Source: Terriglobia bacterium (GTDB taxonomy: Bacteria; Acidobacteriota; Terriglobia; JAIQFV01). From it: 64,000 bases of DNA. Every line of letters starts with the position of its first letter. The stretch's first letter is position 1. The stretch is taken from contig JAIQFY010000021.1 of NCBI GenBank assembly GCA_020072965.1, positions 1 to 64,000 of the forward strand, written 5' to 3'. This document shows, piece after piece, positions 34,966 to 64,000 of the stretch. Both the position numbers and the translations under genes were made by a program. The notes under the pieces were generated by a model. That model was not told the DNA's origin, did not search any database, and saw only the letters and a program-made list of their open reading frames with translations.

Positions 34966-35936
34966 AATCCTTGCCTGACCAAGAGATTCCTCTCAACATT
35001 TGGCAAGTGTCCGGTGGGCCGAAAAATCGATCCTATTCAGATGTTTTTCTTCGGTTCGGCGTGGGGCTGATCGGATCGGGGGATCCCGGGCCATGGCGTC
35101 CAGACCGGCCCGATAAAGAGTTCGGAGGTAGTTACGTTCGCCGGTTTGCCACATTGCCTCAGATAGGTGATGTAATTCTCCTCAGAACAGGTGTCTCTGT
35201 GGTTAAAGCAATTGGGCTTGTTGCTAGTCCATATCAGTATCTTCCTCAATTCGACGATGTGAACGGTTGGGATCTGCAGCATGCACTTCGCATCCGTTGG
35301 AGTGTTCTGCCTGAAGAGTACAACTTCGGCGTGAGTGTGTTTGGTAGCTACCCATCGCGATTTTCACGGGTAAATCATTTGGGTGTCGAAGACTATGCCA
35401 AACGCTACGTCAAGTCCCCGCCAACGCGATGGCAAACAGCTGACTTGCCCACCCTGCCCCAGGAAGAACCGTTTATCGAATGTGTCCCTGATTTCTTGCA
35501 AGGCCTCGTTGCCCAAGTTCAGGACCTTTCCAGCTTGTACTGGGACCGAAGACGTTTTGGAGAACATCCTGGAGAAGACGAGTTTGTTGCCCATTACGTT
35601 GTGCCATTTTTGCGTGCGTTGAACTGGCCAGTCGAGTGCATCGCCGTCAAATGGCGACACATTGATGTTTGTGTTTTTCAATCTTTGCCGCGTACAGCGG
35701 AGAACAGCGTCTTTATTATAGAAGCCAAGCGAATGGGCCAAGGGATCGAAGGGGCGCTCGCACAAGCTAAACGCTACCTCAAAGAGATTGGAGTGTCGCG
35801 AGATGTCGTAGTCACCGATGGAATTCGATACCGCATGTATGACGCACTCCACGGTTTTATCCCTATCGCTTATGCTAACCTGACCTATTTGAAGTCGTCG
35901 GCACTGAGGCTATTTGAGCGGATGAAGAGATCTTAG
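34962..35936 (+). CDS. Probable PD-(D/E)XK nuclease
   Basis: 324-aa protein starting with GTG inside the methylase stop (GTGA overlap). The C-terminal half resembles the HsdR N-terminal nuclease fold: EFVAHYVVPFLRALNW, HIDVCVF (Asp235), FIIEAKRMG (Glu254-x-Lys256) and then ALAQAKRYLKEIG and VVTDGIRYRMYD. The N-terminal half has IWQVSGGPKNRSYSDVFLRFGVGLIG and GDVILLRTGVSVVKAIGLVAS, which looks like a small beta-rich recognition domain, possibly EVE/PUA-like; that part is tentative. Likely the DNA-cutting partner of the methylase next door, with the N-terminal domain sensing a DNA feature. Family name not recognised. Confidence 0.72.
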   Translation: MKSLPDQEIPLNIWQVSGGPKNRSYSDVFLRFGVGLIGSGDPGPWRPDRPDKEFGGSYVRRFATLPQIGDVILLRTGVSVVKAIGLVASPYQYLPQFDDVNGWDLQHALRIRWSVLPEEYNFGVSVFGSYPSRFSRVNHLGVEDYAKRYVKSPPTRWQTADLPTLPQEEPFIECVPDFLQGLVAQVQDLSSLYWDRRRFGEHPGEDEFVAHYVVPFLRALNWPVECIAVKWRHIDVCVFQSLPRTAENSVFIIEAKRMGQGIEGALAQAKRYLKEIGVSRDVVVTDGIRYRMYDALHGFIPIAYANLTYLKSSALRLFERMKRS

Positions 35937-35948
35937 AGGAGGACGCAC

Positions 35949-38729
35949 ATGAGCGCTGAACCATGGTACAAAGTGGTGACACCGCGTAAGGAAGTCCGAG
36001 AAGGCCGGTCATTCGATCCGAACGAATTTGCCATCCATCTTGAACAAGTGCTGGCCGGGACGGCGCCGGAAGACTATAGGAATCCCGAAAAATTCTTTTC
36101 TCGGACATGTTTCACACGAGCCCTCACTGAACACACAGGCATGGTGCTCCGCCGACTCTCCGGAGAAACCGCTAACACGGCTGCTGTTCTGACATTAATT
36201 ACTCAATTTGGTGGTGGCAAAACGCACACCTTAACCACTCTCTACCACCTGGCTAATAGTGGCGCAAAGGCTACAGATTATCAGGGAGTTTCAGGCCTCC
36301 TCCAAGCCGCCGGTTTGTCCTCTGTCCCTAAGGCGAAAGTGGGAGTGTTCGTCGGCAATGCATGGGACCCACAGGAAGGGCGCGAAACCCCTTGGATTGA
36401 TCTCGCCAGACAGCTTGCCGGGAATGATGGGGTCGCTGCGCTGGGTCCGATTGCCAAGACTGTCCCACCCGGGACTGAATCCCTGAGCAAAGTCTTCGCT
36501 CTGGCAGGAGGATCTGTACTCATCCTGTGTGATGAGGTTTTAAATTTCTTGAATCGTCACCGGAACATGGCAGAACATTTTCACTCCTTTATACAAAACC
36601 TTACTGTTGCAACGACCGGAACTTCCCACAGCGCGGCAATCGTGAGTCTTCCCCGCAGCCAAGTGGAAATGACTGATTGGGACATTCAGTGGCAGGAGAA
36701 AATCACTAAGGTAGTTCGGCGTGTCGCCAGAGATCTGATCGCTAATGATGAAGCTGAAATCAGCGAAGTTGTTCGACGTCGGTTGTTTGAGGACTTGGGG
36801 GGTGAGCGAATCCGCAAGAACGTGGCTAAAGCCTATGCCGATTGGTGCTTTGAACGGCGCGCGCAGCTGCCGCCTGAGTGGACCGCCGTGGACACGGCAA
36901 CAACTGAATCGAAATCCAGGGAATTCCTGCAAAGTCGCTTCGAAGTTTGTTATCCCTTCCATCCCGCAACGCTTTCAGTGTTTCAACGAAAGTGGCAGGC
37001 GCTGCCACAGTATCAGCAAACGCGTGGAACATTGGCCATGCTGGCCCAATGGATTTCTTGGGCCTACCGCGAGGGATATCAGCGGGCGCGCAGGGAGCCA
37101 TTGATCACCTTGGGTTCTGCTCCACTAGATGTGATGGAGTTTCGCAGTGGTGTCCTTGGGCAACTCGGGGAGCCGAAATTGCAGGCAGCGATCGAAGCTG
37201 ATATTTCCGGAGCACAATCACACGCACGAGCGATCGATGCGGATACGAGCGGGCCGTTACGGGACATCCATCGCCGCGTGGGGACAACAATTTTGTTCGA
37301 ATCCTCAGGTGGTCAAGTGGACAAAGTGGCTCATCTTCCCGAACTGCGATTTGCGCTTGGTGAGGTCGAGCTCGATACCACCTCAATCGATAACGCCGCC
37401 ATGGCCCTGGAGTCGAAATCATTCTTCATACGTCGGGTGGGTTCCGACGGATTTCTGATCCGCCATCAGCCAACCTTGAAAAAGGTTGTCAGCGACCGTC
37501 GCGCCTCACTTGATGAAGATGGCGAGATCAAACCGGCAATGCGCACTCTCGTGGAAAAAGAATTTCAACAGGGAGCAACTCTGCCCATGGTCCGATTTCC
37601 AAATGATAGTTCCTCAATTCAAGATTCGCCCAAACTGACTCTTGTCCTGATGGATCCGGAACTGGAATGGGCTGGAAACGGTGCCTTGCGACTGAAGATC
37701 GCGGAATGGAGCAAAGAACGAGGAAAATCACCAAGGCTTTATCCTGGTGCACTGGTCTTTTGTCTTAAGAAGCCGGGACGGGAACTTCGAGACAAAGTGG
37801 AATTGTGGCTCGCGTGGAAGCGGGTAGCCAGGGAAGTCGCTGAGGGTACTTTGGGAGGAGAGTTTGATCGCGCGGAGCGGTCTGACATTCAGTCGAAAGT
37901 GAGTGATGCGGAAGACGATGCTATCGATGAAGTGTGGGCCGGTTATCGCTATGTTGTTTTGACTGACAGCAACGAACCCGACGGGTTAAAAACAATCGAC
38001 CTGGGCGCCGGCCATGCGAGCGCTGCTGAAAGTTTGTGCGGAAGGGTTATCGGCGCCATGAAATCGAGTTCGCTGCTTAACGAATCGGTCGGTGCAGGAT
38101 TTATCGACCGCCACTGGCCTCCAGCCTTGAAAGAGTCGGGCGCATGGCCATTGAGCAGCCTTAGGCAAAGTTTTTTGAACGGTTCGCTGACCCGCTTGTT
38201 GGATCCAGACACCGTACTACGTTCCAAGATTGTTGAATTCGTCGGCCATGGAGACTTCGGATTGGTCTCCGGACTCAAACCCGACGGTTCGTACGACCGC
38301 CTGTGGTTCAACGAACTCATTGCCCCCGAAGAGGTGATGTTCGAGTCCGGAATCTTTCTGTTGAAGAAATCAAAGGCTCAAGAGATGAGGAGTGGAATCC
38401 AAAAACCGTCCTCTCCCCCCACGGCGATCGCGGGCGACATGAAACATCCCTCGCAAGAGCCGCTGGTGCTCGAGCCAACGGCCGCGCCCAATGCGCGGAT
38501 CGCCGTCCTGCCAAAGACACTGCGCATTACTGGGACAGTTCCACCCGAGATCTGGAATCGACTCGGAACGAAGATCATCCCCAAACTCAGATCCGGGACA
38601 GATCTGAAAGTTGGCATCGAATTTACAGTTACCTTAGCCCCAGATGTGGCGCAATCGGTGATCACGGAACTTCGTCAGGCTTTGCAGGATTTAGGGGTAG
38701 CGAACAACGTAAAGATTGATCTTACCTGA
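35949..38729 (+). CDS. DUF499-domain ATPase
   Basis: 926-aa protein of the DUF499 family. Walker A is FGGGKTHTLTTLYHL (Lys91), preceded by the family-typical FAIHLEQVLAGTAPEDYRN and FFSRTCFTRAL. A probable Walker B is SVLILCDEVLNF. The rest is a large helical region of the kind seen in these P-loop proteins. DUF499 ATPases are repeatedly found beside DUF1156 methylases and helicases in defence islands; their biochemical role is not settled. It starts 12 bp after the nuclease gene with a strong gaggagg. Last gene of the island, followed at once by a palindromic element. Confidence 0.9.
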   Translation: MSAEPWYKVVTPRKEVREGRSFDPNEFAIHLEQVLAGTAPEDYRNPEKFFSRTCFTRALTEHTGMVLRRLSGETANTAAVLTLITQFGGGKTHTLTTLYHLANSGAKATDYQGVSGLLQAAGLSSVPKAKVGVFVGNAWDPQEGRETPWIDLARQLAGNDGVAALGPIAKTVPPGTESLSKVFALAGGSVLILCDEVLNFLNRHRNMAEHFHSFIQNLTVATTGTSHSAAIVSLPRSQVEMTDWDIQWQEKITKVVRRVARDLIANDEAEISEVVRRRLFEDLGGERIRKNVAKAYADWCFERRAQLPPEWTAVDTATTESKSREFLQSRFEVCYPFHPATLSVFQRKWQALPQYQQTRGTLAMLAQWISWAYREGYQRARREPLITLGSAPLDVMEFRSGVLGQLGEPKLQAAIEADISGAQSHARAIDADTSGPLRDIHRRVGTTILFESSGGQVDKVAHLPELRFALGEVELDTTSIDNAAMALESKSFFIRRVGSDGFLIRHQPTLKKVVSDRRASLDEDGEIKPAMRTLVEKEFQQGATLPMVRFPNDSSSIQDSPKLTLVLMDPELEWAGNGALRLKIAEWSKERGKSPRLYPGALVFCLKKPGRELRDKVELWLAWKRVAREVAEGTLGGEFDRAERSDIQSKVSDAEDDAIDEVWAGYRYVVLTDSNEPDGLKTIDLGAGHASAAESLCGRVIGAMKSSSLLNESVGAGFIDRHWPPALKESGAWPLSSLRQSFLNGSLTRLLDPDTVLRSKIVEFVGHGDFGLVSGLKPDGSYDRLWFNELIAPEEVMFESGIFLLKKSKAQEMRSGIQKPSSPPTAIAGDMKHPSQEPLVLEPTAAPNARIAVLPKTLRITGTVPPEIWNRLGTKIIPKLRSGTDLKVGIEFTVTLAPDVAQSVITELRQALQDLGVANNVKIDLT

Positions 38730-39063: not shown

Positions 39064-42000
39064 TTATTCAGTTCCGAAGATATAGTGATTTATGAATCGG
39101 TTCACCTTATCTAGAATTCTCAGTTGTGCAGCAACTGTTTCCGAAGGAGGATTAAAGAACGAAGGTTCCATCAGAATATTGATATCAGATCTGGTCTGAG
39201 GATCTTTTACAAAAATGTTGATCGCGATGGACTGGGCCTTATCTTCGAGTAGATTTTCGACGCACCCCGCAGGAATACCTGTAATTACTAAACCGATGAT
39301 ACAACTGAATGCGTTTTTGGCCGCCTCCTGCCCCGGCGTTTCGCCCGTGGCAGGACTTGTAGTAGGCAATGGACGGGGAACCGTGGGGGACCACAGAAAA
39401 GCAACTTGTGGGCTATTGCTGTCAGGGGCAAGACCTGAATGGTCAGCAAGAAGGACAGGATTGTTATGCGCGTACAGGAAGCGATGCTGGGTTAAGGGAA
39501 GGATGACTAAGCCGCGGAAGGGGTCTTTCGAAGTCAGTCGGCCGACATTCGGGTCGTAAAACCTCGTCCTCAAGAAGTAGAGCCCCGTCCCCGGATCGAG
39601 CGCCTCGCCGGTGAAGCGGAACTTGTTTCTCGTGCCGAGCTGCGGGCCGGGAGCGGACAATTCCGGTTGACCCCACGCGTCGTACACATATCTTCCCGCG
39701 AGTTTCCCGGCGGGATCGGTTAGCCCGACAACGCTTCCGAGCCCGTCGTAGTGATAGAAGAAGTCGAACGCGGGACCCGATTCAGAAATGAGCCCAAGGC
39801 CGTAAGCATAGGAGATATCGCCATCAGGCCCGGATTCCTGCAAAACCACGGGCAAGGCCGTCGCCACGTCGTTCAAGTAGCTGTATGTGCCGGTGCCGAC
39901 CGACTGGGTAATCCGGTTTCCCTCCCCGTCATAAGCAAACGCGCTGCTTACCGCTCCACCGGTTACCGAAGTGAGCCGGTTGGCCGCGTCATAGCTGTAA
40001 ATCAAAGAATTCCCCGTGCCCGTCTGTGTCTTTGAAGTCTGGTTTCCGTTTGCGTCGTAAGTGAAGAGGGCAGTGCCGGCGGTCAGAAGCCGGTCTGCTG
40101 CATCATAAGTGTAATTGATCGAGGTGCCCGGCGCTGTGAGACTCAGCCGGTTCCCCACAGAGTCATAAGTGAAGCGAGTCACTTTAGTATCCACGGCAAC
40201 TGAGGTCAGCTGATAGAGCGGGTCGTATCCGTAAGACGTAGTTTTTCCGCTGCCATCGGTGACTTGGAGCCGATTACCTACGGGGTCTAACGCATAAGTG
40301 AAACTCGTGACTGGGTTATCCACACTTCCGCGATAGCTATTTCGGACTTGGACCAAGCGATTGGCCGCATCATAGGCAAATGCCAAAGCTGCCTGGTTTG
40401 GATAGGATGTGCGTGTCAGATTATTTGCCGCATCGTAGCTGTATGTCGTGGCCCGCCCCAGCCAGTCCGTGACGCCAGCGATCCTGTTTGCGGGGTCGAA
40501 TGAATAGCTCACCACTTTTCCGTCTGGATAGGTTACCGATTGCCGATTCCCGACGCCGTCGTACGCGTAAGTAACCACCTTACCTCCCCGATAGGTTGCA
40601 GAGATCAGCCGGTCGAGAGCATCGTAGTTGTAGAGGGTATAGCCGTGGACATCAAGCATTTTCGTGGGCTTGCCATTGGCGTCAATGAAGTACGTCACGT
40701 AGTTTGCGTCAGCGTATGCGATATTCACTAACCGATTGAGGGCATTATAGTGGAAACGATTGGTCTGTCCCTTCGCGTCAGTGACGGCAACCACGTTCCC
40801 GACCGCATCGTAGACGTACGAGGTCACAAAGGAGAGTGGATCGGTAACGCTCATGAGCCGGTTGAGCGCGTCGTAGGCGTACGAGGTTGTGTCGCCTTTG
40901 GCGTTCGTGAAGGTCTCCCGATTGTTGTTCGCATCGTAGCCGTACTGCGTGACGTGCCCCAGCGCATCAGTGACGCTCACGAGATTATTGTTGGCGTCAT
41001 ATGCGTAATTCGTCGCATTCCCATTGGCATCAGTAATTGTCAGGAGATTTCCCACGGCATCGTAGACGATTCGCGTCTGACTGGAGAGCGGATCGGTGAT
41101 TTTTTCCAAACGACTCAGCGCGTCGTAAGTCGCGGTTGCCTTGTGCCCGTTCGGATCGGTGATCGAAAGCAGCCGACCGATGCCGTCGCAGGCCAGAGTG
41201 GTGCTGTGATTAAGGGCATCGGTAATCTGAGAGAGGTTCCCGAAGGAATCGTAAGAGAAAGTCGTGACGTTGCCCCTCGCGTCAGTCTTGGAAGTGAGTT
41301 GGCCGACGCCGTCGTAGGCGAAGGCGGTCGTGTTGCTCAGGGCGTCTTGGATAGTTTTCAGGTTTCCATTTACATCGTAAGTGAATGAGGTGGTTTTCCC
41401 TTTGGCGTTTGTGGCGGTGAAGAGGTTATTTTTCGCGTCGTAAGTGAAAGAGGTCGTTCTCCCGTAGGGGTCCGTAATGCTTGTGACGTTCCCCAGAGGA
41501 TCATTGGTGAAGTTCGTCGTCGATCCGTTCTGGTTCGTTGCGCTCGTGCGGTTGTTGTTCGCGTCATAGGTGAAACCGGTTGTTCCACCGAGGGCGTCTG
41601 TGATCTGGAGTAGTCTCAGCAGACTGTCATGCGTGTGAATGGTGTTGCCACCGCGAGGATCGGTAATTGTCGTCTGTCCAGACCCGGGTGTGTCGTAGGC
41701 AAAGGTCGTCACAAACGCCCGCCCGTTGGTTTGTGAGACAACACGGCTCGCACTGTCGTAAGTGTTTTGGAGGAGGAGTTTGCCGTTCGGCAGGGTGATT
41801 GAAGTTACGCGGTGACTTGCATCATAGGCGTAGGATGTGATTCCTCCGTCAGGATCAGTGGACGAGATAAGATCCCCGGCAGAGTCATATCCGAACCCGA
41901 CCACTCGCCCGACCGGATCGGTGAGCAACACGATGTGGTTTGAAGAATCGTAGCCAAACCTGTTCACACGACCCGCAGTGTCGGTGATCTGCGAGAGATT

Positions 42001-45000
42001 TCCAACACCATCGTAGCTAAGGACAAGGGAGTTTCCATTCTTGTCCGTGATGGTAGAAAGTTTTCCGGCGGGAGTGAAAATCAGCTGGGTCTGATTTTTC
42101 TGGGTGAGCGTGAAAGAGCCGTCCGCATTCTGTACGAGCGTATCGAATGTTCCTCCAAGGCTTGGGGTGAAAGTGCCGTCACTATTCCGCACATAGAAGA
42201 TATCGTGACCATCGGACCACTCGACTGTCGTAAGACCATCTGGCCTTGTCGAGAGGGAGATGTCGTACGAGTGTGTCCAGCCCGCGCCCAGCGGACCAGA
42301 ATTGGAGTTTAGTGCGTTATAGGTGCGCTGGAAGACAAACGGCAGGCCGCGAGAAGGGATCATCAAGTCCGTATGCTGGTAGAAATAATTCCCTGTGGCG
42401 GTGTTGACCGGGTCAGACGCTTTTGCGGAATTGCCGCTCGGACCCATATTCGTTAATAGTGGCACAGTCCCAGTCCCCGAGAGACTGACGTTAGTGGAGG
42501 GAGTGGGCGCGTTACTACTTATCGTGAGCGTGCCGTTAGCGGCTCCGCCAAACAGGGCGTTGAACGTAACAGAAAGCTGCACGCTGTTTCCCGGTGAAAT
42601 CGGGGCAAATGCTTGAGGCGAGACTGTAAAGGGTCCGCTTAAAGTTGTTATTCCAGTGATGTTCAAATCTGCCGTACCCGTATTCTGGATCGTGATTGGC
42701 AGTGATTTTGTTCCACCCACTGCCACGCTGCCAAAATCAACCGAGAGCGAAGCGGGAGTGATGCTAATCTGAGGTTGAGGTGCCGTGGAGGTCCCGCCCT
42801 TGGCGACGAAGGCGTCCACCCCGCCACCTCCAATGTCTATAATGCCGGTGGGCATCGTGAGTGTTCCGGTCGGTGATCCCAACGTACCGACAACCGACGC
42901 GACTGTGGCACTCTGTGAGCTAAAAATTCCCCCTTCGGTGGCAGACGAACCGGTCGTGTCCTGCCAGCCACCAACATTGTTTGGACCGGACCCCGCGATG
43001 AAGATATTTCCCGATTGATCCAATCCCAATGATGAACTGTTCACGCCGACATTTCCGCCCCAACTCTTGCTGGAAAGTAGATTGCCGTTGGGGTCGTACC
43101 GCAGGAACATCGCAGTGGAGAAAGAACTACTCATATCAACCACACCGGAGACAACCAGATTGCCGTTTCCCTCAAATGCAAGGCCTGTGGCGGTGTCGTA
43201 TCCTGACGAGCCCCTCCAGGTTTTGTTCCACAGCAGGTTTCCATCTGCACTAAGTTTGAGCAGAAGAGCGTCAAAGTCGCAGGCACCGTGGTCGCCGAGG
43301 CAGTGGCTGGACATCCGCCCCGCAACATAGACGTTGCCAGCACCGTCGACCTTGATTGATTTCGGATTCCCTGCCTCATCTTGGCCGGGGCCCGCCCAAT
43401 TGCGATTCCAAACTAAATTGCCGGCACTGTCAAACTTGAGCACAAGGATGGTATTGTGGTACGGAGAGACCCAGTAATCCCAGCTTATCCCCGCAAGATA
43501 AACGTTCCCATTCCCATCCACGTCCAATGAGTATGCGGTATCATACGTAGCTGGCCCTTTCCACGCCTTGCTCAGCAGAAGGTCGCCATTCGGGCTGTAC
43601 TTCAACAGAACGGCAGCATCTCCGACGCTATAGCTCTCCGCCGCTACATATACGTTGCCGCTGGAATCGAAACCAATCGAGTAAGCCTGTTCAAAACTGC
43701 CTCCACCCCACGTTCTGCTCCAGAGGAGGTTTCCGGAGCTATCGAACTTCAATAAGAGGGCATCGTACCATCCAGCGCCGAAACTTGCCGTGCCCCCAGC
43801 AACATACACGTTGCCCGCGTTATCAACGGCAACAGCATAACCATAATCCTCGCCCGGTCCGCCCCATGTCCGGCTCCACAATAAAATCCCCGAACTGCCA
43901 TATTTCAAAAGCAGAACGTCAGATCCTCCTGCACCGAAGCTGCTTGTTGAACCAGCTAAATAAATACTGCCGCCGGCATCAATGGCCATGGAAGACGCCG
44001 AATCGCTTGCGCTTCCGCCCCACGTATGCGCCCAGCTTGGTTCCTGCGATGCGTTCTCAGCCAGGGTTGCGAACCCGCCCACGAGCGTGGTTCGCTGGGA
44101 GTCGGGGTTGGTGACAATCACATTGTGGGACCCGATAGGAGAGTCGGGTAAGATATTGATATTGGCAACGATCTGAGCGCTCGTCCGCAAGCTGTACGAA
44201 TCTACAGTGATCCCTGTCCAACTGAAGGAGAGCATGGCATTAGTATCAAAATTGCTACCGGTGACAGTGAAGTTAGGGATGGTTTGTCCCTGGGCACCTG
44301 AGGTTGGCGAGATCGATGCAATTGATGGAACTGGGTTTGCGGATGCGGTTATTGTGTAAAGGTATCCGTGCCCAGTGTTTCCTGAGATGCCGCCGTTGCT
44401 AATAATCTTGTTGCCAGAGATGCCTATTGGATATGGCCAGTTCACCCCGGGAAATTCAGTCAGGGTGGTCCAAGTTGTCCCATCGTATAGAAATCCCTGG
44501 TCATGTCCGGAGGCGTCAATGTAATAACCAACGATATTATTGCCATCTATGGCTACTGGGGATGTACTCATCACCCCGGGCATGGTAAGAGCAGTCCAGA
44601 TTCCAGTCGTGATATCGTAAAGAAAACCACTGCTCCCGGCCCAACCAACAATGCTGTTGCCTGAGATACCTTGTGGTTGCGTCCCACTCGCTCCAGGCTT
44701 ATCAAGGGTGATCCAATTTCCAGTCGTTATGTTGTAGAGGAATCCATGAAATTGCCAATTGAGGAAGCTGCCGGTAATGTAGTAACCAACAATGTTATTG
44801 CCGGAAATAGCATTTGGTGTTCCAGGCAGATTGCTCAGGGGGGTTAAAAGGTTCGTTGCTATATTGTATATATTGTAAAGAGAGCCACCTGCAACAAGAA
44901 TATTGTTGCCGTCGATGCTTCGCGGGGCTCCAGGTAGATTATTCAACGTTGTCCACGTTGCCCCATTGAAGAGGAAATTACCCGCGGAGCAAATGCCAAC

Positions 45001-45159
45001 AATGTTGTTGCCGGAAATAGCTGATGGTGATGTCCATGTCGCTCCAGGCATATCAAGGGCAGTCCATGTACCAGTAGATGCTCGCGTGGGTTCTGCAAGC
45101 ATTATAAAGCTCACTGCTAGAACGACTAAGCCCTGAATGACCCTGTTTTTATTGTTCAT
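39064..45159 (-). CDS. Giant secreted Rhs-repeat protein
   Basis: About 2031 aa. A signal peptide (MNNKNRVIQGLVVLAVSFIMLAEPTRA) precedes repeats of ISGNNIVGYY type (about 23-270, HAF-like). A TIG/IPT-like domain (about 276-361; SIASISPTSGAQGQTI) follows, then SBBP-type beta-propeller repeats (about 370-735; DNAGNVYVAG). An ASH/choice-of-anchor domain (about 790-903) comes next, then Rhs/YD repeats (about 926-1855; YDAVGNL-like) and the Rhs core (RFYDPNVGRLTSKDPFRG). A variable tail of about 120 aa follows LADHSGLAPDSN. Rhs shells usually enclose a C-terminal toxin; this tail is not recognised. I place the start at 45159, after gaggg. It shares direction with the sigma/anti-sigma/CHAT genes upstream. 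Confidence 0.9.
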   Translation of the reverse strand: MNNKNRVIQGLVVLAVSFIMLAEPTRASTGTWTALDMPGATWTSPSAISGNNIVGICSAGNFLFNGATWTTLNNLPGAPRSIDGNNILVAGGSLYNIYNIATNLLTPLSNLPGTPNAISGNNIVGYYITGSFLNWQFHGFLYNITTGNWITLDKPGASGTQPQGISGNSIVGWAGSSGFLYDITTGIWTALTMPGVMSTSPVAIDGNNIVGYYIDASGHDQGFLYDGTTWTTLTEFPGVNWPYPIGISGNKIISNGGISGNTGHGYLYTITASANPVPSIASISPTSGAQGQTIPNFTVTGSNFDTNAMLSFSWTGITVDSYSLRTSAQIVANINILPDSPIGSHNVIVTNPDSQRTTLVGGFATLAENASQEPSWAHTWGGSASDSASSMAIDAGGSIYLAGSTSSFGAGGSDVLLLKYGSSGILLWSRTWGGPGEDYGYAVAVDNAGNVYVAGGTASFGAGWYDALLLKFDSSGNLLWSRTWGGGSFEQAYSIGFDSSGNVYVAAESYSVGDAAVLLKYSPNGDLLLSKAWKGPATYDTAYSLDVDGNGNVYLAGISWDYWVSPYHNTILVLKFDSAGNLVWNRNWAGPGQDEAGNPKSIKVDGAGNVYVAGRMSSHCLGDHGACDFDALLLKLSADGNLLWNKTWRGSSGYDTATGLAFEGNGNLVVSGVVDMSSSFSTAMFLRYDPNGNLLSSKSWGGNVGVNSSSLGLDQSGNIFIAGSGPNNVGGWQDTTGSSATEGGIFSSQSATVASVVGTLGSPTGTLTMPTGIIDIGGGGVDAFVAKGGTSTAPQPQISITPASLSVDFGSVAVGGTKSLPITIQNTGTADLNITGITTLSGPFTVSPQAFAPISPGNSVQLSVTFNALFGGAANGTLTISSNAPTPSTNVSLSGTGTVPLLTNMGPSGNSAKASDPVNTATGNYFYQHTDLMIPSRGLPFVFQRTYNALNSNSGPLGAGWTHSYDISLSTRPDGLTTVEWSDGHDIFYVRNSDGTFTPSLGGTFDTLVQNADGSFTLTQKNQTQLIFTPAGKLSTITDKNGNSLVLSYDGVGNLSQITDTAGRVNRFGYDSSNHIVLLTDPVGRVVGFGYDSAGDLISSTDPDGGITSYAYDASHRVTSITLPNGKLLLQNTYDSASRVVSQTNGRAFVTTFAYDTPGSGQTTITDPRGGNTIHTHDSLLRLLQITDALGGTTGFTYDANNNRTSATNQNGSTTNFTNDPLGNVTSITDPYGRTTSFTYDAKNNLFTATNAKGKTTSFTYDVNGNLKTIQDALSNTTAFAYDGVGQLTSKTDARGNVTTFSYDSFGNLSQITDALNHSTTLACDGIGRLLSITDPNGHKATATYDALSRLEKITDPLSSQTRIVYDAVGNLLTITDANGNATNYAYDANNNLVSVTDALGHVTQYGYDANNNRETFTNAKGDTTSYAYDALNRLMSVTDPLSFVTSYVYDAVGNVVAVTDAKGQTNRFHYNALNRLVNIAYADANYVTYFIDANGKPTKMLDVHGYTLYNYDALDRLISATYRGGKVVTYAYDGVGNRQSVTYPDGKVVSYSFDPANRIAGVTDWLGRATTYSYDAANNLTRTSYPNQAALAFAYDAANRLVQVRNSYRGSVDNPVTSFTYALDPVGNRLQVTDGSGKTTSYGYDPLYQLTSVAVDTKVTRFTYDSVGNRLSLTAPGTSINYTYDAADRLLTAGTALFTYDANGNQTSKTQTGTGNSLIYSYDAANRLTSVTGGAVSSAFAYDGEGNRITQSVGTGTYSYLNDVATALPVVLQESGPDGDISYAYGLGLISESGPAFDFFYHYDGLGSVVGLTDPAGKLAGRYVYDAWGQPELSAPGPQLGTRNKFRFTGEALDPGTGLYFLRTRFYDPNVGRLTSKDPFRGLVILPLTQHRFLYAHNNPVLLADHSGLAPDSNSPQVAFLWSPTVPRPLPTTSPATGETPGQEAAKNAFSCIIGLVITGIPAGCVENLLEDKAQSIAINIFVKDPQTRSDINILMEPSFFNPPSETVAAQLRILDKVNRFINHYIFGTE

Positions 45160-45172
45160 GATGTTTAAACCC

Positions 45173-45454
45173 TCAGGAGTAGAGAAATTTGCTGCCATAC
45201 TTAAACAAGGCACAGATGTATCTGTCGGTCGGATTTTGATAGCGGATGTTCAGTTGTGAGCCCGCTGGCGTGTAGCTATTTAATGGCTTGACATCGCCTT
45301 CAGCGCTGTAGTCGCTCCAGGGGAGCTTGGGTGTTTTGATGCGGTAATTCAGAATGGTCCGGCTCAACTCGCCATTACTCTGTGGGTCGTGATGATAGGC
45401 CCAGACCAGAACGCAGATAGAAAGCCTCCACTTCCTAATGGTGGCTTTCCTCAA
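45173..45454 (-). CDS. Small hypothetical protein or gene fragment (93 aa)
   Basis: Ends 13 bp before the Rhs start, on the same strand. The only available start is TTG. The tail (SYTPAGSQLNIRYQNPTDRYICALFKYG) looks protein-like, somewhat reminiscent of DUF3592-type proteins, but that is a weak impression. The N-terminus lacks a clear signal peptide. It may be the 3' remnant of a longer gene. Confidence 0.35.
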   Translation of the reverse strand: MRKATIRKWRLSICVLVWAYHHDPQSNGELSRTILNYRIKTPKLPWSDYSAEGDVKPLNSYTPAGSQLNIRYQNPTDRYICALFKYGSKFLYS

Positions 45455-47343: not shown

Positions 47344-50300
47344 TTACTTCCATTCACCCTGAAGAGTGAACGCCGCCCAGTAATAGGGGGATGCCCATTG
47401 CTTTTCTTTCCACAAGGACATCTGCGCTTTCCGTAAGGCTGCGGCGGGCGTCAGGTGCTGCTCTCCGAGCATGGCGTCGTAGAAGCGCGCCATCAGCTCC
47501 CCGGTGGCGCGGTCGTCGACCTTCCACAGGCTTGCCATGACGCGAGCCGCTCCCGCATACATAAATCCACGGGTCAGGCCAATCAACCCTTCTCCTTTGA
47601 TCTCCTTCCCCAGCCCGGTTTGACAGGCGCTGAGGACCACAAGATCAGCCGGAAGATCCAAATTGTAAATTTCATTCAACCGCAGAAAGCCATCTTGCGG
47701 TTGCCCCTGCCGGTTGACCAGGGACAACACGAGGCCGGAGAGTTCGGGATGCACACTGTTCAACAATCCATGCGTGGCGAAATGGACAATTCGATACCGG
47801 GACAATTCCGGGCCTTTTGCGGCGGCCAAATTGGCTTCGAAATCGAGGTCGGCCTTGCGCTGGTCCTTTGGAACACGATCCAGAATGGCCTCCGCTTCAC
47901 GGCGGGCAAAAGGCAAACGAGGAATGTGCGCCCCACCTTGTGTCACGCCCGATTCAACGGCCGAGCGTTCAACTTCGTTTTCTATTGCAGAGTTTGAGGC
48001 GTTCGACTTGCCCAATGTAGATCCCGCTTGCGACCTTCGGGCACCTTTGACCCGGGGATCATCCTTCTCAAACACCGGGTCAGCGAGGACTGCCACCAAT
48101 TTTCCTGCTGGTTTACGCGAAGTCATCTCACGACGCAAAACCTCAAGAGTCGACGCCGAAGGAAGATTGACAATCTCATGGTTTGATACAAGAGGTGTCC
48201 AACCGCCATGGCGTCCATCGGATGGATCGTCGAATTGCGAGTGCAGAGTCGCAGGGTCAGGGAGTGCCGCAAAAGGAATGTACTGTAGGGCTCCATCTGC
48301 AACAATCAAAAGTCGTTTGTTGCCGAGAAGATGGGAGGCCGGACCGAGAACCATCCTCCCCAAAACGGCCGCAGCTACAGGATATTCATCTTCTGCCTGC
48401 TTCAACCGTCTTCCCCGGTGTTCGATCGATTCATCCTTGTCCCGGGAGTTGCGTGCGACCAATAGATCATAAACGCGTCGAGACGCTGCCTCGATCTCGG
48501 CTCGTTTGGGAAGCCCAAAACTCGCAAGGGATGTCGGTGACACTACCCAAAGGTAGCTATGCTCTTCTCCCAGTGCATACTCAAGAAGTACTGTGTCAGT
48601 ATCAATTAGACCCTGCTGAATCTCCGTCAAGCGAAGCGGCTGGGACTGTGTCAATGCGGCATAATTTGGATTGGAGGACCGGATGCGATGCTGGACGATC
48701 TGATATTCCTTTGATAGCCCCTCAATCTCCTTTTCAAGTCCCTTGGTTTCCTCATGACTCACCTTGCTGAGAGTCAATTGCCTGTAATATTCCGTCTTGG
48801 CGTTCAATCGCCGTCGCAGGCTGCGCTCTTGTTCAACCCATAACGGATCCATGCCACGCCTGATCTTGGCCCGGGCCTGGGCCAGGGTATCGAGAAGACT
48901 TCGGGCGCGGGCTCGCTCGTTTATCTGTAACGCCTTGGAGCTGTATCCGCCTAAAGGCTTCCTCTCGTCAAGCTTCATCAACAGATCAACATAGAATTCG
49001 TAATAGTCATGAACTGAAGCCAGATAAGTGGCTCGAACCTCCTGAATTCCAAGATTGCCGCGAATGGATTCAGCAATCTCAATGACCCGTTTCATTTTCT
49101 CGCACGCCGCGATTATCTCGCCCCGGTCTCGGTCGATTCGAGCCAGGTCATAGAGGCTCACGGCTTCACCGTCCACGTCACTGACGGCCTTGCGGATTGG
49201 AAGGGCTTGATTCAAGTATTCAAGAGCTCGCTTCTGATCGTCCCTGGCGTAATAGAGCTCGCCGATGTAGGTGAGCGTAGACGCCTCACCCGGGCGGTCA
49301 CCCACCTGCCGCCAGAGCGATAACGCCTCGTCATAGTATTCGAGCTCCTTTCGGTCATCCTTCAACCTCTGATAAACAAGGCCCAGAGAAGTGAGAGTGG
49401 ATGCTTCACCGCGACGCTCGCCCATCTCCCTCCGAAGTTGAAGTGCTTTTTGCAGGTTTTCTGCGGCCGCCAGAAGTTCATTGGATGAAATCAGGAGCGT
49501 GCCGAGGCTGTGGAGAGCCAGGGCTTCACCATAGCGGTACCCAACCTGGTGATTCAATGAAAAGGACTGGTTGTAATAGTCCAAAGCCCTGTGGTTCTCT
49601 CCTAAGGACGCGTAAACTTCGCCAATCTGATGCAGGGCACGTGCCTCCCCCATGAGGTCCTTGGCGGCCCGCCAATACGGCAGGGCGAGTTCAAAGTAAT
49701 CAAGTGCTTTCTGTTTTTCGCCGACAGATGCATAGATCCTCCCAATCGCAGTGTTTGCAATGGCACGCCCCCGAACAAGATCACCTGGATAATCTGAGGA
49801 CTCATAGGTCCGCAGGGACTGGAAGGCGAAGTCCAACGCTTTCTCTTTCTCGCCTATGGCGCTGTACACCGAGGCGATATCGTTTAGGGCCCACCCTTGG
49901 CCACCCATGCTGTTTTTAAGTTGCCGATAAAGATCCAAGCCCTGATCGAGATAGATGAGAGACTGACGATATTCACTCAGAAACCAATACTCCTCACCAA
50001 TCGAAGTAAGCATGACCGCTTCCATGTACTGGCCTCCGACCGATCGGAAAATGGGAAGCGCTTGGGAAAAGTAATCGAGTGCTCTCTGGTATTCTCCCTG
50101 GGAATGATAAACATTCCCAAAGTGATGAAGGACCATGGCTTCTTTGAACCGATCACCAATGGCGCGCCAGCGTGCCAGCGACTCCTCAAACTTTTGAATA
50201 ATCTTCGGAAAAAGCTCCGCGTCATTTCGGCGATCCAATACAAAAGCTTCATCCAGGAGTTTCTCCGCTTCACTGCTATCGGCGTCCCGTGTTGTAGCCC

Positions 50301-50799
50301 CGCGGAGCTCATCCATTTCTATCCAGTAATCTCCAGCGGACTTATTTCTTCGTGCGCACACTTCCAGTCGATAAGTCCTGGGCTCCCTTGCAATGACGGC
50401 AATTGGGTATTCAGGCTCGTAAGAATCGAAGCTCCCCGCGGCATAGAGCACTCCATTTGTAAGTTCAGAAAGGCGAACGCCAATGTTCATGGCGCGACTA
50501 TGAACGCGCACATGCGCAAACTCACCCGCTGACAGCGTGAATTGAAAGGAATCACACTCGTCGTTTGAAAGCCTGCTTTCGATTCTTTTTCCAACCTGCA
50601 ATGCACGTGCGGCCATTTGCGTTGCGGGATCGGTTGAAGACGCGGATTCATGCTGAGTAGTTGAACGAACACCCATTGCGGGAGCCTGCAGGCTGAAGCC
50701 AAGCGAGACGGTCAGACAAACCAATACAACTGTGGCAATCGCTATTCTTCTGCCAAGTGGTATTTTGAGAGTCTGGAATGGAGTCCCCAAGGGTGGCAT
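47344..50799 (-). CDS. CHAT-domain (caspase-like) TPR protein
   Basis: About 1151-aa protein. An N-terminal hydrophobic segment (IAIATVVLVCLTVSLGFSL) is a signal peptide or anchor. A beta-rich region (about 50-160) resembles the PPC-like domains of such proteins. Roughly ten TPR units follow (about 226-545; HFGNVYHSQGEYQRALDYFSQAL type), then a helical stretch and the C-terminal CHAT protease domain (about 870-1150). The catalytic dyad is HFATHG (His1010) and LSACQTGLG (Cys1059), numbered from the ATG at 50799. A GTG at 50814 is an alternative start. TPRs likely bind a partner that controls or is cleaved by the protease. First gene of the CHAT, sigma, anti-sigma, Rhs series. Confidence 0.92.
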   Translation of the reverse strand: MPPLGTPFQTLKIPLGRRIAIATVVLVCLTVSLGFSLQAPAMGVRSTTQHESASSTDPATQMAARALQVGKRIESRLSNDECDSFQFTLSAGEFAHVRVHSRAMNIGVRLSELTNGVLYAAGSFDSYEPEYPIAVIAREPRTYRLEVCARRNKSAGDYWIEMDELRGATTRDADSSEAEKLLDEAFVLDRRNDAELFPKIIQKFEESLARWRAIGDRFKEAMVLHHFGNVYHSQGEYQRALDYFSQALPIFRSVGGQYMEAVMLTSIGEEYWFLSEYRQSLIYLDQGLDLYRQLKNSMGGQGWALNDIASVYSAIGEKEKALDFAFQSLRTYESSDYPGDLVRGRAIANTAIGRIYASVGEKQKALDYFELALPYWRAAKDLMGEARALHQIGEVYASLGENHRALDYYNQSFSLNHQVGYRYGEALALHSLGTLLISSNELLAAAENLQKALQLRREMGERRGEASTLTSLGLVYQRLKDDRKELEYYDEALSLWRQVGDRPGEASTLTYIGELYYARDDQKRALEYLNQALPIRKAVSDVDGEAVSLYDLARIDRDRGEIIAACEKMKRVIEIAESIRGNLGIQEVRATYLASVHDYYEFYVDLLMKLDERKPLGGYSSKALQINERARARSLLDTLAQARAKIRRGMDPLWVEQERSLRRRLNAKTEYYRQLTLSKVSHEETKGLEKEIEGLSKEYQIVQHRIRSSNPNYAALTQSQPLRLTEIQQGLIDTDTVLLEYALGEEHSYLWVVSPTSLASFGLPKRAEIEAASRRVYDLLVARNSRDKDESIEHRGRRLKQAEDEYPVAAAVLGRMVLGPASHLLGNKRLLIVADGALQYIPFAALPDPATLHSQFDDPSDGRHGGWTPLVSNHEIVNLPSASTLEVLRREMTSRKPAGKLVAVLADPVFEKDDPRVKGARRSQAGSTLGKSNASNSAIENEVERSAVESGVTQGGAHIPRLPFARREAEAILDRVPKDQRKADLDFEANLAAAKGPELSRYRIVHFATHGLLNSVHPELSGLVLSLVNRQGQPQDGFLRLNEIYNLDLPADLVVLSACQTGLGKEIKGEGLIGLTRGFMYAGAARVMASLWKVDDRATGELMARFYDAMLGEQHLTPAAALRKAQMSLWKEKQWASPYYWAAFTLQGEWK

Positions 50800-51066
50800 C
50801 GTTATATCCCACACATAGGAGAAAGCCGATCTAAGTGAAGATGACTCTGGTAAAAGACGAGTCTGTGAATTGAATTTTACTTCCGGGATGGGCCGAGAAA
50901 TCCAGTCAAAGTAATTATCGTTCCCTTGCTTGGCATAGATTATTCGTCGGTCTATGGAAAGTCAAGCAAGTAAGGACGAAAGGGGCCTTTCCAATAGTAA
51001 TAGTGCGTCCTTTACCATGCCATTGAATCGTATTCAATTCCTGTGGAAGAGTGATAATCGTATTTT

Positions 51067-60129: not shown

Positions 60130-61485
60130 TCAATCCTTCAGGAGATAATTTAAAGCCATATAGAGATCCAGTCTCCCAAATCCAAGATCGCTGGTCAGTT
60201 GTTTAGCATGGGAGAGCGTGTTCATGCTGTTGTTGTAATTGGTATTCGAATAGATTTGTTGGATCAGGGCTGGAGCGCCGGACACAAAGGGCGCGCTAAA
60301 GGAAGTGCCCCAGACCGCAGCGTAGTGGTTGCCTGGAAAAGTGGTGATGATGGCTTCGCCGGGTGCCGCCAGGGCCACCAGGCTTGAGCCATAATTGGAG
60401 AACGTACTGCGCGCATCGTTCCAGGCAGTGGATGCAACCCCGATTACATTCCTTAAGGCGGCAGGAAAGCTAAGATTGTCGGATCCTGCATTTCCCGCCG
60501 ATGCCACGCAAATCACCCCGTGATCCGCGGCATAATTGATAGCCCGCACAAGCTCCGCGGAGGGACTTGCCATACTGAAACTCATGTTGATGACATCAGC
60601 GCCATTGTCCACGGCATAGTAGATGGCACGAATAATGTCAAAGCTATTTGAGGTTCCATCCGCCCGGAAGGCCTTCAATGGCATGATCTTCGCAGTGGGT
60701 GCAACCAGGTGGATAATGCCAGCCACCATAGTGCCATGTCCAAAAGCGACTGGGAGATTGTTTGTGTCGAGAAATGCGACCGTAGACTGGTCCAGGAAAG
60801 CGACTGTGGATTGATTGAGGATGGCTTGGTTGCTGCCATCCAGAAACGCCACTGTGGATTGATCGAGAAATGCAACCGTGGACTGGTTCAGGTCGACCCA
60901 CTCCGAAGCGGACCCCAGAACATTGTTTACGAAATCATAGCCCGGCGTAATCCATCGCTTGAGCACCGGATGATTGGGATCAATTCCCGTATCAATGACA
61001 GCAACTATCCCTTTACCGGTCGCGTATTGATGGGCGCCCGAGAGATTGATGATAGAAGCTGCCGGCTGGTTGAGATAACTGTTCCAGACGGAATCACCCG
61101 CATAGGAGACAAACGCCTGACTGGAAGCAAGGGTGGAAAGTGAACTCGTTGATGGAGTCATGCTCCCGGCTTGGAGAGTTGCCGGGTTTTCGGGAATCAC
61201 CGCCGGGATAAGTTCTTCAAAATTTTGGACTGCCGGGTCAGCCTTGACTATCGCGTCCATCGTCCCGGGATCAGCGGTCGCCGGCTCCTGTACCAGGTAG
61301 AGACCGTGGGTTCCGTCCACCGAGCCCAGGAGTTGCAAGTTGTACTTGTCCAGAACGCCCTGCAACGAAGCAGCGCTTGTCCGCAGAATGCAAATATCAG
61401 GAGTTGCGGCCTGAAGTTGAAGTGCGAAAAGAAAAATTGCCAAAATAAGTGCAACCTGAAAATGCCGCCTTACATTTTGTCTCAT
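60130..61485 (-). CDS. Secreted subtilisin-like protease with QSTVAFLD repeats (paralogue 1)
   Basis: 451-aa S8 peptidase. The signal peptide is MRQNVRRHFQVALILAIFLF, followed by an I9-like propeptide region to about residue 125. The catalytic triad is Asp165 (AVIDTGIDPNHP), His250 (GHGTMVAG) and Ser395 (WGTSFSAPF); the oxyanion Asn332 lies in SAGNAG. Between Asp and His sits an insert with four copies of QSTVAFLD at 201-208, 209-216, 225-232 and 233-240. The insert is not standard for subtilisins. It shares the design of the gene at 62007, so these are tandem duplicates. Extracellular or periplasmic proteolysis is expected; the repeat's role is unknown. Confidence 0.92.
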   Translation of the reverse strand: MRQNVRRHFQVALILAIFLFALQLQAATPDICILRTSAASLQGVLDKYNLQLLGSVDGTHGLYLVQEPATADPGTMDAIVKADPAVQNFEELIPAVIPENPATLQAGSMTPSTSSLSTLASSQAFVSYAGDSVWNSYLNQPAASIINLSGAHQYATGKGIVAVIDTGIDPNHPVLKRWITPGYDFVNNVLGSASEWVDLNQSTVAFLDQSTVAFLDGSNQAILNQSTVAFLDQSTVAFLDTNNLPVAFGHGTMVAGIIHLVAPTAKIMPLKAFRADGTSNSFDIIRAIYYAVDNGADVINMSFSMASPSAELVRAINYAADHGVICVASAGNAGSDNLSFPAALRNVIGVASTAWNDARSTFSNYGSSLVALAAPGEAIITTFPGNHYAAVWGTSFSAPFVSGAPALIQQIYSNTNYNNSMNTLSHAKQLTSDLGFGRLDLYMALNYLLKD

Positions 61486-62006
61486 GACACCTTCTCCACG
61501 TTAAGATTAACCACAAAGATCAAAGCAATTGTTAATCCAAAAACATTACCCTGTTTCGAACCCAACTTTTCTCTTCCGGCCGACATCTCAATTCAAAGTT
61601 AAACCTTTATCCAATAACGCGTTGCGTTCGATCGCCTCGCCTTTATCCCTAGGAGCAATTCCTTCGGGAATCACCCGTTGTATTCCAAGTCGTGATTCAA
61701 TCTAGAACAGTCCCTAGAAACTATGGAAAGATTTGTAATTGCACATTCTCACCTGCTCGGCGGTCAAATGTGCAATTGTTGAGTCAGGTCAGACCCGAGC
61801 AATCTTGGTTCCAGTGTTAAACGTCGCGAAGAATTTCGCACGAAAGAATGTCCTTTCTATGGTAAATCCTCATTAAACAACTGAATCGATGTTGCTTGAA
61901 AAATGTTGTGGAAAAGATCCACGGGAGACGCCCCTCTGGTGCGCCTCCTTGAAGGCAATGGGTGGTGGTTCAAAAGTGAACACAACCCCGAAATTCGTGA
62001 ATGAAA
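61486..62006. other. Spacer between protease paralogues with an inverted repeat
   Basis: About 520 bp without a clear gene. A perfect 11-bp inverted repeat aattgcacatt (61737-61747) and aatgtgcaatt (61767-61777) could be an operator or stem-loop in the leader of paralogue 1. No riboswitch was recognised. Confidence 0.45.
61737..61777. promoter_or_regulatory. Perfect 11-bp inverted repeat upstream of protease 1
   Basis: Arms of 11 bp with a 19-bp spacer, about 250 bp upstream of the start. Symmetry suits a dimeric regulator or an RNA hairpin. No known consensus assigned. Confidence 0.35.
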
Positions 62007-63431
62007 TTAGAACTTTGCCTGGCGAAGAGCTTTGAGTCTGGAGGTCAGGGCCTGGTAGAGATCAAGTCTTCCATACCCTAAATCACTGGTGAGTTCTTTG
62101 GCGTGTGAGAGTGCATCGACACCCCCGAAGAAATCTGTTTTGGGATCAAATTGGAGCAACAGACCAGGAGCCCCTGCCACAAATGGAGCGCTGAAGGAGG
62201 TACCCCAGGCAGCCGCGTAATGACCGCCAGGATAAGTCGTGATGATTCCCTCCCCGGGGGCAGCCAGGGTGATCAGACCCGATCCAAAATTCGAGAACGT
62301 GCTGCGGACGTCGAGATTGGAAGTGGATGCCACCCCAATGACGTTTCGCAAAGCCGCAGGATACCTCAAATCATCCGTCCCGTTATTCCCGGCCGAGGCG
62401 ATGCAGATAACCCCATGATCAGTGGCGTAATTAATCGCTCGAACGAATTCCTGGGAAGAACCCGCCAGGCTGAAGCTCATATTAATCACGTTAGCGCCAT
62501 TATCGACCGCATAGTAAATGGCGCGAATGATGTCAAACGTATTTGAGCTGCCATCGGCTTGAAAGGCCTTCAGAGGCATGATCTTGGCGGTGGGGGCCAC
62601 CAGATGTACGATCCCAGCCACCATGGTGCCATGACCAAAAGCCGCAGGAAGCTTGTTGGCATCCAGAAAGGCGACAGTGGATTGATCCAGGAAAGCCACC
62701 GTCGATTGATTCAAAACCGCAGAGTTCGTTTGATCAAGGAAAGCCACGGTGGACTGATCCAGAAAGGCCACAGTCGATTGTGCGAGGTCGCTCCACTCGG
62801 AGGCGACTCCTGCAACATTGTGGACGAAATCAAAACCCGGCACCAGCCATCGCCTCAGCGCCGGATGATTGGGATCAACCCCCGTGTCAATAATGGCGAT
62901 CGTCCCTGAACCGCTTGCCATGCCTTGAGCGCTTGTCAGGTTGATGATCGTGGCTGCTGCCTGATTGACATAACTGGTCCTGACGATGTCTCCCGAAAAT
63001 GAGGTAGTGCTTGTGTTACTCAGGGCATCAAGGAAAGCCACTGTCGACTGACTCAGACTTGCTCCTGCTAATGCCTCGGGAACGAATACGCCACCTACCT
63101 GCTCGAAGCTTTGAACTGAATCATCAGCCTTAACATGGTCTTCCAAAGTCGCCGGATCCGATCCGGCCGGTCCACTCACCAGGAAGACGTCGTGGCCCGG
63201 GGTGTCCACACCCCGGATAACTTGCAGGCCGTTCTTATCGCATACAGTATCGCGAGTTGCAGCCGGAGTCCTGAGAATAAATAAATTGCTGGCAACTGCC
63301 TGAAATTGAGCGGTTGTGGCTGGGGAGGCGCTACGACCGAAGAATCCCTGCGGAAAAACAATCCAGCAGAGTAGCATGAACAAGGGAAGCCAGACGTACC
63401 GTTTTGCATTAAATCTCATGATGGACTTCAT
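62007..63431 (-). CDS. Secreted subtilisin-like protease with QSTVAFLD repeats (paralogue 2)
   Basis: 474-aa S8 peptidase with an N-terminal signal (FMLLCWIVFPQGFFG) and a propeptide-like region. The catalytic triad is Asp182 (AIIDTGVDPNHP), His267 (GHGTMVAG) and Ser412 (WGTSFSAPF); Asn349 lies in SAGNNG. QSTVAFLD occurs five times: once at 128-135 in the propeptide/catalytic junction, and four times at 218-225, 226-233, 242-249 and 250-257 between Asp and His. The fifth copy outside the insert argues for a motif with its own function. Same direction and design as the gene at 60130. Confidence 0.92.
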   Translation of the reverse strand: MKSIMRFNAKRYVWLPLFMLLCWIVFPQGFFGRSASPATTAQFQAVASNLFILRTPAATRDTVCDKNGLQVIRGVDTPGHDVFLVSGPAGSDPATLEDHVKADDSVQSFEQVGGVFVPEALAGASLSQSTVAFLDALSNTSTTSFSGDIVRTSYVNQAAATIINLTSAQGMASGSGTIAIIDTGVDPNHPALRRWLVPGFDFVHNVAGVASEWSDLAQSTVAFLDQSTVAFLDQTNSAVLNQSTVAFLDQSTVAFLDANKLPAAFGHGTMVAGIVHLVAPTAKIMPLKAFQADGSSNTFDIIRAIYYAVDNGANVINMSFSLAGSSQEFVRAINYATDHGVICIASAGNNGTDDLRYPAALRNVIGVASTSNLDVRSTFSNFGSGLITLAAPGEGIITTYPGGHYAAAWGTSFSAPFVAGAPGLLLQFDPKTDFFGGVDALSHAKELTSDLGYGRLDLYQALTSRLKALRQAKF

Positions 63432-63721: not shown

Positions 63722-64000
63722 TTATTTCTTGTCCTTCTTGTTCACCCGCTTCGGCTTCAAATCCGAATGTTCCATGTGATGCCCCTTCACGAGCTGATTC
63801 AGGGAAATCTCCATCAGCCGGGTGATTTCCATATCATTGACAGGCACACACAATCGCAAGCGCTTTCTCGCCTCGCATTCCAACTGGAACTCGCCCAGTT
63901 GGTTGCTCACAGTCCGAGCTACAATGTCCTTTCCCGCCAGGAGGAAAACCGGCACATGCGAGTGCCGCTTGGAAGGTTCCTTGAAATTGGCAATTTGACC
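63722..64000 (-). CDS. C-terminal part of a hypothetical protein (5' end beyond the window)
   Basis: The frame is open to the window edge (GQIANFKEPSKRHSH, then VPVFLLAGKDIVARTVSNQLGEF), so the apparent GTG start at 63955 is only internal. The segment VPVFLLAGKDIVARTVSNQLGEFQLE looks like a carboxypeptidase-regulatory-type beta domain, the kind found at the end of Acidobacterial anti-sigma-associated proteins. The Lys-rich tail ends KRVNKKDKK. Function not determined; 60 bp upstream of the 54-aa gene. Confidence 0.65.
   Translation of the reverse strand, partial: GQIANFKEPSKRHSHVPVFLLAGKDIVARTVSNQLGEFQLECEARKRLRLCVPVNDMEITRLMEISLNQLVKGHHMEHSDLKPKRVNKKDKK

Follow-up and report, generated by a model that had tools for sequence, protein, structure and literature searches.

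Relation to known systems

Peptide signalling through TPR-domain receptors of the RRNPP type has been described as a system of Bacillota, one in which Phr propeptides with tandem identical pheromones occur (PMC11343458) and in which, according to a reference cited in that article, the peptide is matured in Bacillus by extracellular subtilases. Here we analyse a 64,000-nucleotide stretch of DNA from a Terriglobia bacterium of the Acidobacteriota (positions 1 to 64,000 of contig JAIQFY010000021.1, assembly GCA_020072965.1; hereafter the window), in which two paralogous S8 proteases, predicted to be secreted, carry several copies of the octapeptide, or octad, QSTVAFLD within their catalytic domains. 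We found that selection keeps the copies identical, that the octads of paralogues change together, that the proteases belong to a conserved gene cluster, and that a TPR-CHAT protein encoded nearby has a TPR groove that covaries with the octad.

The likeness to RRNPPA systems (Rap-Phr, NprR, PlcR, ComR) lies in a multi-copy short peptide in a secreted precursor, an Opp importer and an intracellular TPR candidate receptor. The differences are that the octad system is found in Gram-negative Acidobacteriota, that its precursor is an active-looking subtilase with the copies inside the catalytic domain, and that its candidate receptor is fused to a CHAT protease rather than to an HTH or Rap domain, the output being probably an ECF sigma factor. 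Pfam assigns TPR and CHAT domains to this protein with no HTH domain above cut-off, and neither an HTH nor a Rap three-helix output domain was found on it; its TPR repeats and their match to LGN/PINS agree with the TPR domain of RRNPPA-type receptors, peptide binding being predicted only. A second likeness is to the Csx29/Csx30/CASP-sigma proteins of type III-E CRISPR (PMC10028731), where a TPR-CHAT protease likewise stands beside an ECF sigma factor and a putative sigma inhibitor. In NCBIfam, the TPR-CHAT protein has its best match, and its only CHAT one, to Csx29 (NF041237; E 8e-15), although the score of 54.8 bits is far below the family cut-off of 300. No Cas7-11 or other Cas gene was among the identified recurrent cluster neighbours; in their stead the cluster has an octad-bearing S8 protease and an Opp importer, and the trigger would be a peptide rather than RNA. 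By analogy, the octad system would work like RRNPP signalling joined to a Csx29-Csx30-sigma switch, but it is a member of neither family.

The proteases themselves share fold, triad and propeptide with subtilisin/thermitase-type S8 peptidases bearing an I9 propeptide (pro-Tk-subtilisin, pro-subtilisin E), and differ from them in an octad array of about 40 residues just before the catalytic His. As a multi-copy peptide precursor, yeast alpha-factor resembles the octads in its identical peptides, variable codons and lineage-specific sequence, but it is a stand-alone precursor whereas the octads sit within an enzyme. In the open-access literature (PubMed Central) we found no case of a peptide signal lying within a protease's catalytic domain, and nothing relevant on the octapeptide strings, on octapeptide repeats in acidobacterial subtilisins or on RRNPP in Acidobacteria.

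Two predicted secreted subtilases with an octapeptide array

The two proteases, P1 and P2, and their octads lie on the minus strand of the window as follows.

60130..61485, minus strand: P1, secreted S8 (subtilisin-like) protease of 451 residues, with signal peptide, I9-like propeptide and catalytic domain
60862..60885, minus strand: P1 octad copy 1, QSTVAFLD
60838..60861, minus strand: P1 octad copy 2, QSTVAFLD
60814..60837, minus strand: P1 degenerate middle octad, GSNQAILN (the middle octad is variable in most relatives too)
60790..60813, minus strand: P1 octad copy 3, QSTVAFLD
60766..60789, minus strand: P1 octad copy 4, QSTVAFLD
62007..63431, minus strand: P2, secreted S8 protease paralogue of 474 residues, 65% identical to P1
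63027..63050, minus strand: P2 junction octad, QSTVAFLD, in the linker that joins the propeptide to the catalytic core
62757..62780, minus strand: P2 insert octad 1, QSTVAFLD
62733..62756, minus strand: P2 insert octad 2, QSTVAFLD
62709..62732, minus strand: P2 degenerate middle octad, QTNSAVLN
62685..62708, minus strand: P2 insert octad 3, QSTVAFLD
62661..62684, minus strand: P2 insert octad 4, QSTVAFLD

Both proteins match the S8 peptidase family PF00082 (E 1e-40 for P1, 3e-40 for P2) and have its subtilisin fold, its N-terminal inhibitor-like propeptide and an intact catalytic triad, with Asp at D165 in P1 and D182 in P2, His at H250 and H267, and the Ser motif (GTS in P1); their signal peptides were assigned by eye. 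The original prediction, made from the DNA letters, placed four QSTVAFLD copies at matching positions in each insert and a fifth in P2 near the propeptide junction, and this proved exact: the copies occupy residues 201-208, 209-216, 225-232 and 233-240 of P1, and residues 128-135 (the junction), 218-225, 226-233, 242-249 and 250-257 of P2. Each insert thus comprises five octads between Asp and His, two pairs flanking the degenerate one. A degenerate-codon scan of the 5.9 Mb genome gave exactly 9 QSTVAFLD sites, all within P1 and P2, and none for the reversed control; the genome of the sister species likewise holds exactly 9. A chance origin of the copies is excluded. A third protein bearing QSTVAFLD as a partner was ruled out, there being no further site in G000 or G001, and near-matches to the octad in 356 neighbouring open reading frames were in no clear excess (1 found against 0.4 expected at two mismatches).

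An AlphaFold2 model of P2 (pLDDT, the predicted local confidence score, 89) is that of a pro-subtilisin, with Z scores of 42-43 to pro-Tk-subtilisin and pro-subtilisin E in fold searches that matched the subtilisin part only. It aligns with pro-Tk-subtilisin from model residue 2 onward, propeptide included; the junction octad corresponds to model residues 83-90 and the mature core begins at about model residue 97. The octad insert exits the fold directly before the catalytic His, beside the cleft, and in two AlphaFold2 models it has a confidence of 26-78 with mixed helix and strand. Such low confidence is as would be expected of an exposed, cuttable array, and is no proof of disorder. A defined solenoid fold of the insert was unsupported by the two models.

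Octad arrays across relatives

Homologues across Acidobacteriota carry an octad array at the same site, just before the catalytic His. An exactly repeated octad occurs in 89 of 94 distinct family members, with 35 octad kinds among these; some named loci and G-numbered genomes are the same assembly, and duplicates were removed by sequence where recognised. When the class was scanned for tandem QSTxxxL(D/N) pairs, 43 of 399 genomes matched, and none matched the reversed pattern; the reading frames read from these matches are S8 proteases or fragments consistent with S8. In a phylum-wide sample, the same pairs turned up beyond the class in a single genome (G567, L141). The position of the array is thus kept family-wide and the octad letters are lineage-specific, which recent duplication does not explain; a motif confined to a recent duplication, the outcome that would have refuted the original prediction, is excluded by the breadth of this family.

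Beyond the insert, an exact octad copy lies upstream of the catalytic Asp in 25 of the 89 relatives, the other 64 having no exact junction copy. Position 8 is variable at tandem joints (D, N, E, G or H). Arrays also expand, to 10-15 copies in a third paralogue and in L118, and by script count one S8 protein of the latter locus (G118:C43:4000-18000) holds 15 QSTGAILD and one QSTGVILD, mostly upstream of the catalytic Asp. Three genomes (G019, G060 and G033; loci L193-L219) each have many parallel systems, with octads QSEAGFLD, QSDAGFLD, ESAGGFLD, QADASFLD, QAETGFLD and others, and these multi-octad sets resemble the large peptide-receptor repertoires reported for Paenibacillus.

Selection on the octapeptide

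Of pairs of copies taken from one protein, 81% are identical, compared with 8% of pairs taken from different proteins; at position 4 the identity is 0.96 within versus 0.29 between proteins, and at position 6 it is 0.99 versus 0.39. Codon identity between copies is nonetheless 0.43, against 0.38 expected under random synonymous choice, and for the junction copy against the insert copies it is 0.44 against 0.38. The earlier impression of a near-identical peptide written in varied codons is therefore borne out, synonymous codons being nearly randomised, and gene conversion as the source of the matching was ruled out by the codon data. Comparison with the sister species counts 30 synonymous changes and no amino-acid change in the 72 octad codons, against 265 synonymous and 120 amino-acid changes in the remaining 849 codons of both proteins; this gives strong support to the idea, raised on first inspection of the sequence, that the peptide is under selection. 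Identity of the peptide together with near-random synonymous codons indicates that the matching is maintained by selection on the peptide and does not stem from recent duplication. The intervening octads retain spacing and hydrophobic pattern while their sequence is free; being periodic without being identical, they show that the fold alone cannot force identity. A multi-copy peptide precursor would be expected to show such copy identity with varied codons.

Paralogues provide a further view of the same constraint. Five genomes contain ancient tandem paralogues A and B that form separate clades (support 95 and 100), and the exact copies in both A and B carry the genome's own octad: QSTAGILD in L041, QSTTSILD in L044, L045 and L130, and QSTSTVLE in L053. 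Across these genomes the Ser codon class (AGY versus TCN) stays copy-specific, and this speaks against conversion since those splits. Junction and array copies of the third paralogue in the window's genus switch between Ser and Ala at position 5 together; where readable, the switch consists of point changes within otherwise copy-specific codons.

A conserved gene cluster

The octad proteases lie in a cluster with the gene order Opp(D,F,B,C,A), ECF sigma, TPR-CHAT, zf-HC2, S8 (in some cases two S8 genes), HD-GYP. Among about 56 loci with short flanks, the neighbours were TPR-CHAT in 43, a zf-HC2-like gene in 42, sigma in 28, SBP5 in 25 and HD-GYP in 24; longer flanks revealed a full oligopeptide ABC importer before the sigma gene, with OppD/F ATPases (oligo_HPY), OppB/OppC permeases (OppC_N) and an OppA-type binding protein. 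The cluster gene at the edge of the window is the following.

63722..64000, minus strand: 3' part of a zf-HC2-like (putative anti-sigma) gene, directly upstream of P2, extending beyond the window to about C27:64414

Further upstream on the contig are a DUF5666 gene and TPR-CHAT 1 (C27:66756-69656), and then a second set composed of S8 no. 3 (QSTVSLLN), a second zf-HC2-like gene, TPR-CHAT 2, an ECF sigma factor and an OppA-like binding protein.

The cluster sigma gene has an ECF sigma match (TIGR02937). The adjoining zf-HC2-like protein has the HxxxCxxC zinc motif in 38 of 44 relatives, as ZAS-type anti-sigma factors do next to ECF sigma genes, its Pfam zf-HC2 match being sub-threshold only. 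In the TPR-CHAT of L008 the His/Cys dyad motifs HIATHG and SGCATG of the CHAT domain are present, and no signal peptide is evident on TPR-CHAT proteins. An HD-GYP/HD_5 gene follows S8 in about 24 loci (among L039-L073 and L118-L137) and hints at a link to cyclic di-GMP. A larger TPR-CHAT (1156 residues, PF12770 E 8e-71) was also observed at window positions 47344-50814 (minus strand), about 10 kb from P1 and with no adjacent S8 gene.

Covariation of the octad with the TPR groove

Across 44 systems, octad distance was correlated with distance in the TPR half of TPR-CHAT after correction for the S8 core and the CHAT catalytic domain (partial r 0.32, reached in 0 of 999 permutations). The CHAT catalytic domain (0.06), the middle segment (0.005) and the S8 core (0.02) had no covariation of their own with the octad in these systems. 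A sliding window located the signal mainly in TPR-CHAT residues ~105-304, and all ten best-associated columns of the whole protein fall inside this region. Covarying residues of the groove include R122, Y137, R159, Y184, S205, A208, A227, L239, Y278 and H279. The segment matches the TPR domain of LGN/PINS in solved structures, a domain that binds linear peptides.

Comparisons within closely related pairs gave the same picture. The ratio of segment divergence to divergence of the rest was 0.68 in independent sister pairs with the same octad (n=10) and 0.91 in those with different octads (n=10; p=0.007); in held-out sister pairs, with the region fixed, it was 0.44-0.68 for three same-octad pairs versus 0.78-1.55 for eight different-octad pairs (p=0.006). 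Two genomes supplied a natural control, the ratio being 1.36 for the CHAT protein with a changed octad and 0.69 for the one whose octad is unchanged. At matched divergence, mean TPR distance climbs steadily from 0.36 at 0 octad mismatches to 0.57 at 6. In L128 and the window, distant systems with QSTVAFLD in common, the TPR segments are unusually alike (3rd-4th percentile). Given all other proteins, the partial r was 0.35 for TPR, 0.24 for sigma, 0.04 for OppA and 0.00 for the S8 core.

We also compared the number of cluster-type CHAT genes with the number of octad kinds per genome. The two numbers agree in G000 and G001 (2/2 each) and in G093 (3/3, with QSTASILD, QSTAAVLD and QSTAAILE), where one CHAT gene is cut short by the end of a contig and has no link to its octad. 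Eight genomes of genus g7 have 1/1 despite 3-7 S8 genes each, the copies read being QSTAAVLD and a few near-variants; common descent alone could explain the match in this one-octad genus. Family f3 genomes are rich in both CHAT genes and octad kinds, and most of the octads adjoin a CHAT of their own; these genomes are fragmented, and the count for them is only approximate.

Interpretation and alternative explanations

The explanation we favour, with a probability of roughly 0.55, is that the octapeptide is a multi-copy signal carried in a secreted subtilase, re-imported through Opp and read by TPR-CHAT, with release of the sigma factor through cleavage of its inhibitor. We infer secretion, release, import, CHAT activation and anti-sigma cleavage from the genes and domains involved, and the steps would run as follows. 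The secreted subtilase would be the precursor of several identical octapeptides and probably also the maturase, in that the exported protease would process itself or its neighbours and so free the octapeptide. The neighbouring Opp importer would carry the octapeptide into the cytoplasm, to be bound there by TPR-CHAT in its N-terminal TPR groove; binding would turn on the CHAT cysteine-protease domain, and this domain may then cleave the anti-sigma-like zf-HC2 protein and so free the ECF sigma factor. We put at about even odds the broader proposal that this is a new class of peptide communication in Acidobacteriota, in which each system has its own pherotype peptide in a subtilase catalytic domain, an Opp importer, a TPR-CHAT receptor, anti-sigma cleavage and ECF sigma release, and several soil genomes hold many pherotypes, each with its own receptor. 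If true, social behaviour in these abundant and poorly understood soil bacteria would be open to direct test with synthetic octapeptides, TPR-CHAT proteases would gain a class of ligand outside CRISPR (the literature we found describes only the type III-E CRISPR case), and dozens of matched peptide-receptor pairs would be available for reading the TPR recognition code.

Several observations weigh against this interpretation. Covariation with the octad is also seen for the sigma factor (partial r 0.24 given all other proteins), so part of the octad-TPR signal may be shared history; the partial-Mantel permutations correct for phylogeny only in part, and the region 105-304 was first chosen on data later used in the comparison of ten same-octad with ten different-octad sister pairs. 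The P1/P2 copy of the cluster is without adjacent Opp genes of its own, although the neighbouring system has them, and the f3 loci have no OppA nearby. Finally, the variable position 8 at copy joints means that a single cleavage rule is not obvious, and cutting the insert might inactivate the protease.

An alternative is that TPR-CHAT binds or cleaves the octads of the S8 precursor inside the cell before export, as a chaperone, a quality-control factor or a secretion-coupled sensor, with no release or re-import. This would fit the same octad-TPR covariation and the same cluster, as well as a TPR-CHAT without an evident signal peptide and f3 loci without an adjacent importer; it leaves unexplained, however, the full Opp operon that heads the cluster in many loci and the retention of up to 15 copies, and we consider it unlikely, if worth keeping in view.

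The octads may instead serve the protease itself, as sites of autoprocessing or as decoy loops that mimic a substrate of the S8 active site; octad and cleft would then evolve together. The copy in the propeptide-core linker of P2 and of other relatives (25 of 89 with an exact copy upstream of the catalytic Asp) and the emergence of the insert by the cleft, right before the catalytic His, are in keeping with such self-recognition. Yet once shared history is allowed for, octad distance does not follow the S8 core (partial r 0.02 and 0.00), paralogues A and B have the same octads even though they differ (S versus E) at the residue following the S1-pocket Ser-Phe, and 64 of 89 relatives are without an exact junction copy; we therefore regard this explanation as distinctly improbable. 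The original prediction had offered binding, self-cleavage or beta-strand stacking as the role of the motif, and binding fares best of the three, given that the neighbouring TPR-CHAT groove covaries with the octad; self-cleavage is possible, but it does not account for the matching.

Stacking was also considered in the form of self-assembly, in which the octads would be beta-strand or amyloid-like elements joining proteases; copies would then have to match one another, and so would co-expressed paralogues. The agreement of octads within and between paralogues and the hydrophobic period of 8 residues would suit this idea, and in other proteins octads form 16-residue solenoid coils. The insert is nevertheless of low confidence with mixed helix and strand in both AlphaFold2 models, the interspersed octads hold period and hydrophobic pattern without identity, and self-assembly predicts no covariation with the TPR groove of another protein; stacking is not supported by these models and is very unlikely to be the explanation. 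Neutral concerted evolution, by which conversion or slippage would keep the copies alike without function, could draw on the expansion of arrays to 10-15 copies in the third paralogue and L118, but as a sole cause it is excluded by the codon data and is hardly credible otherwise, as synonymous codons are nearly randomised within arrays, Ser codon class is kept copy by copy across genomes while the letters match, changes are 0 non-synonymous against 30 synonymous, and the matching reaches genes on different contigs.

Other features of the window

Two further features lie outside the octad cluster. A SNF2-type helicase with a NO VEIN C-terminal domain and a DUF1156 protein are encoded at window positions 25055-38729 (plus strand), by appearance a candidate DISARM-type anti-phage defence island. 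Positions 39064-45213 (minus strand) encode a 2049-residue RHS-repeat protein with SBBP and ASPM/HYDIN-type Ig domains.

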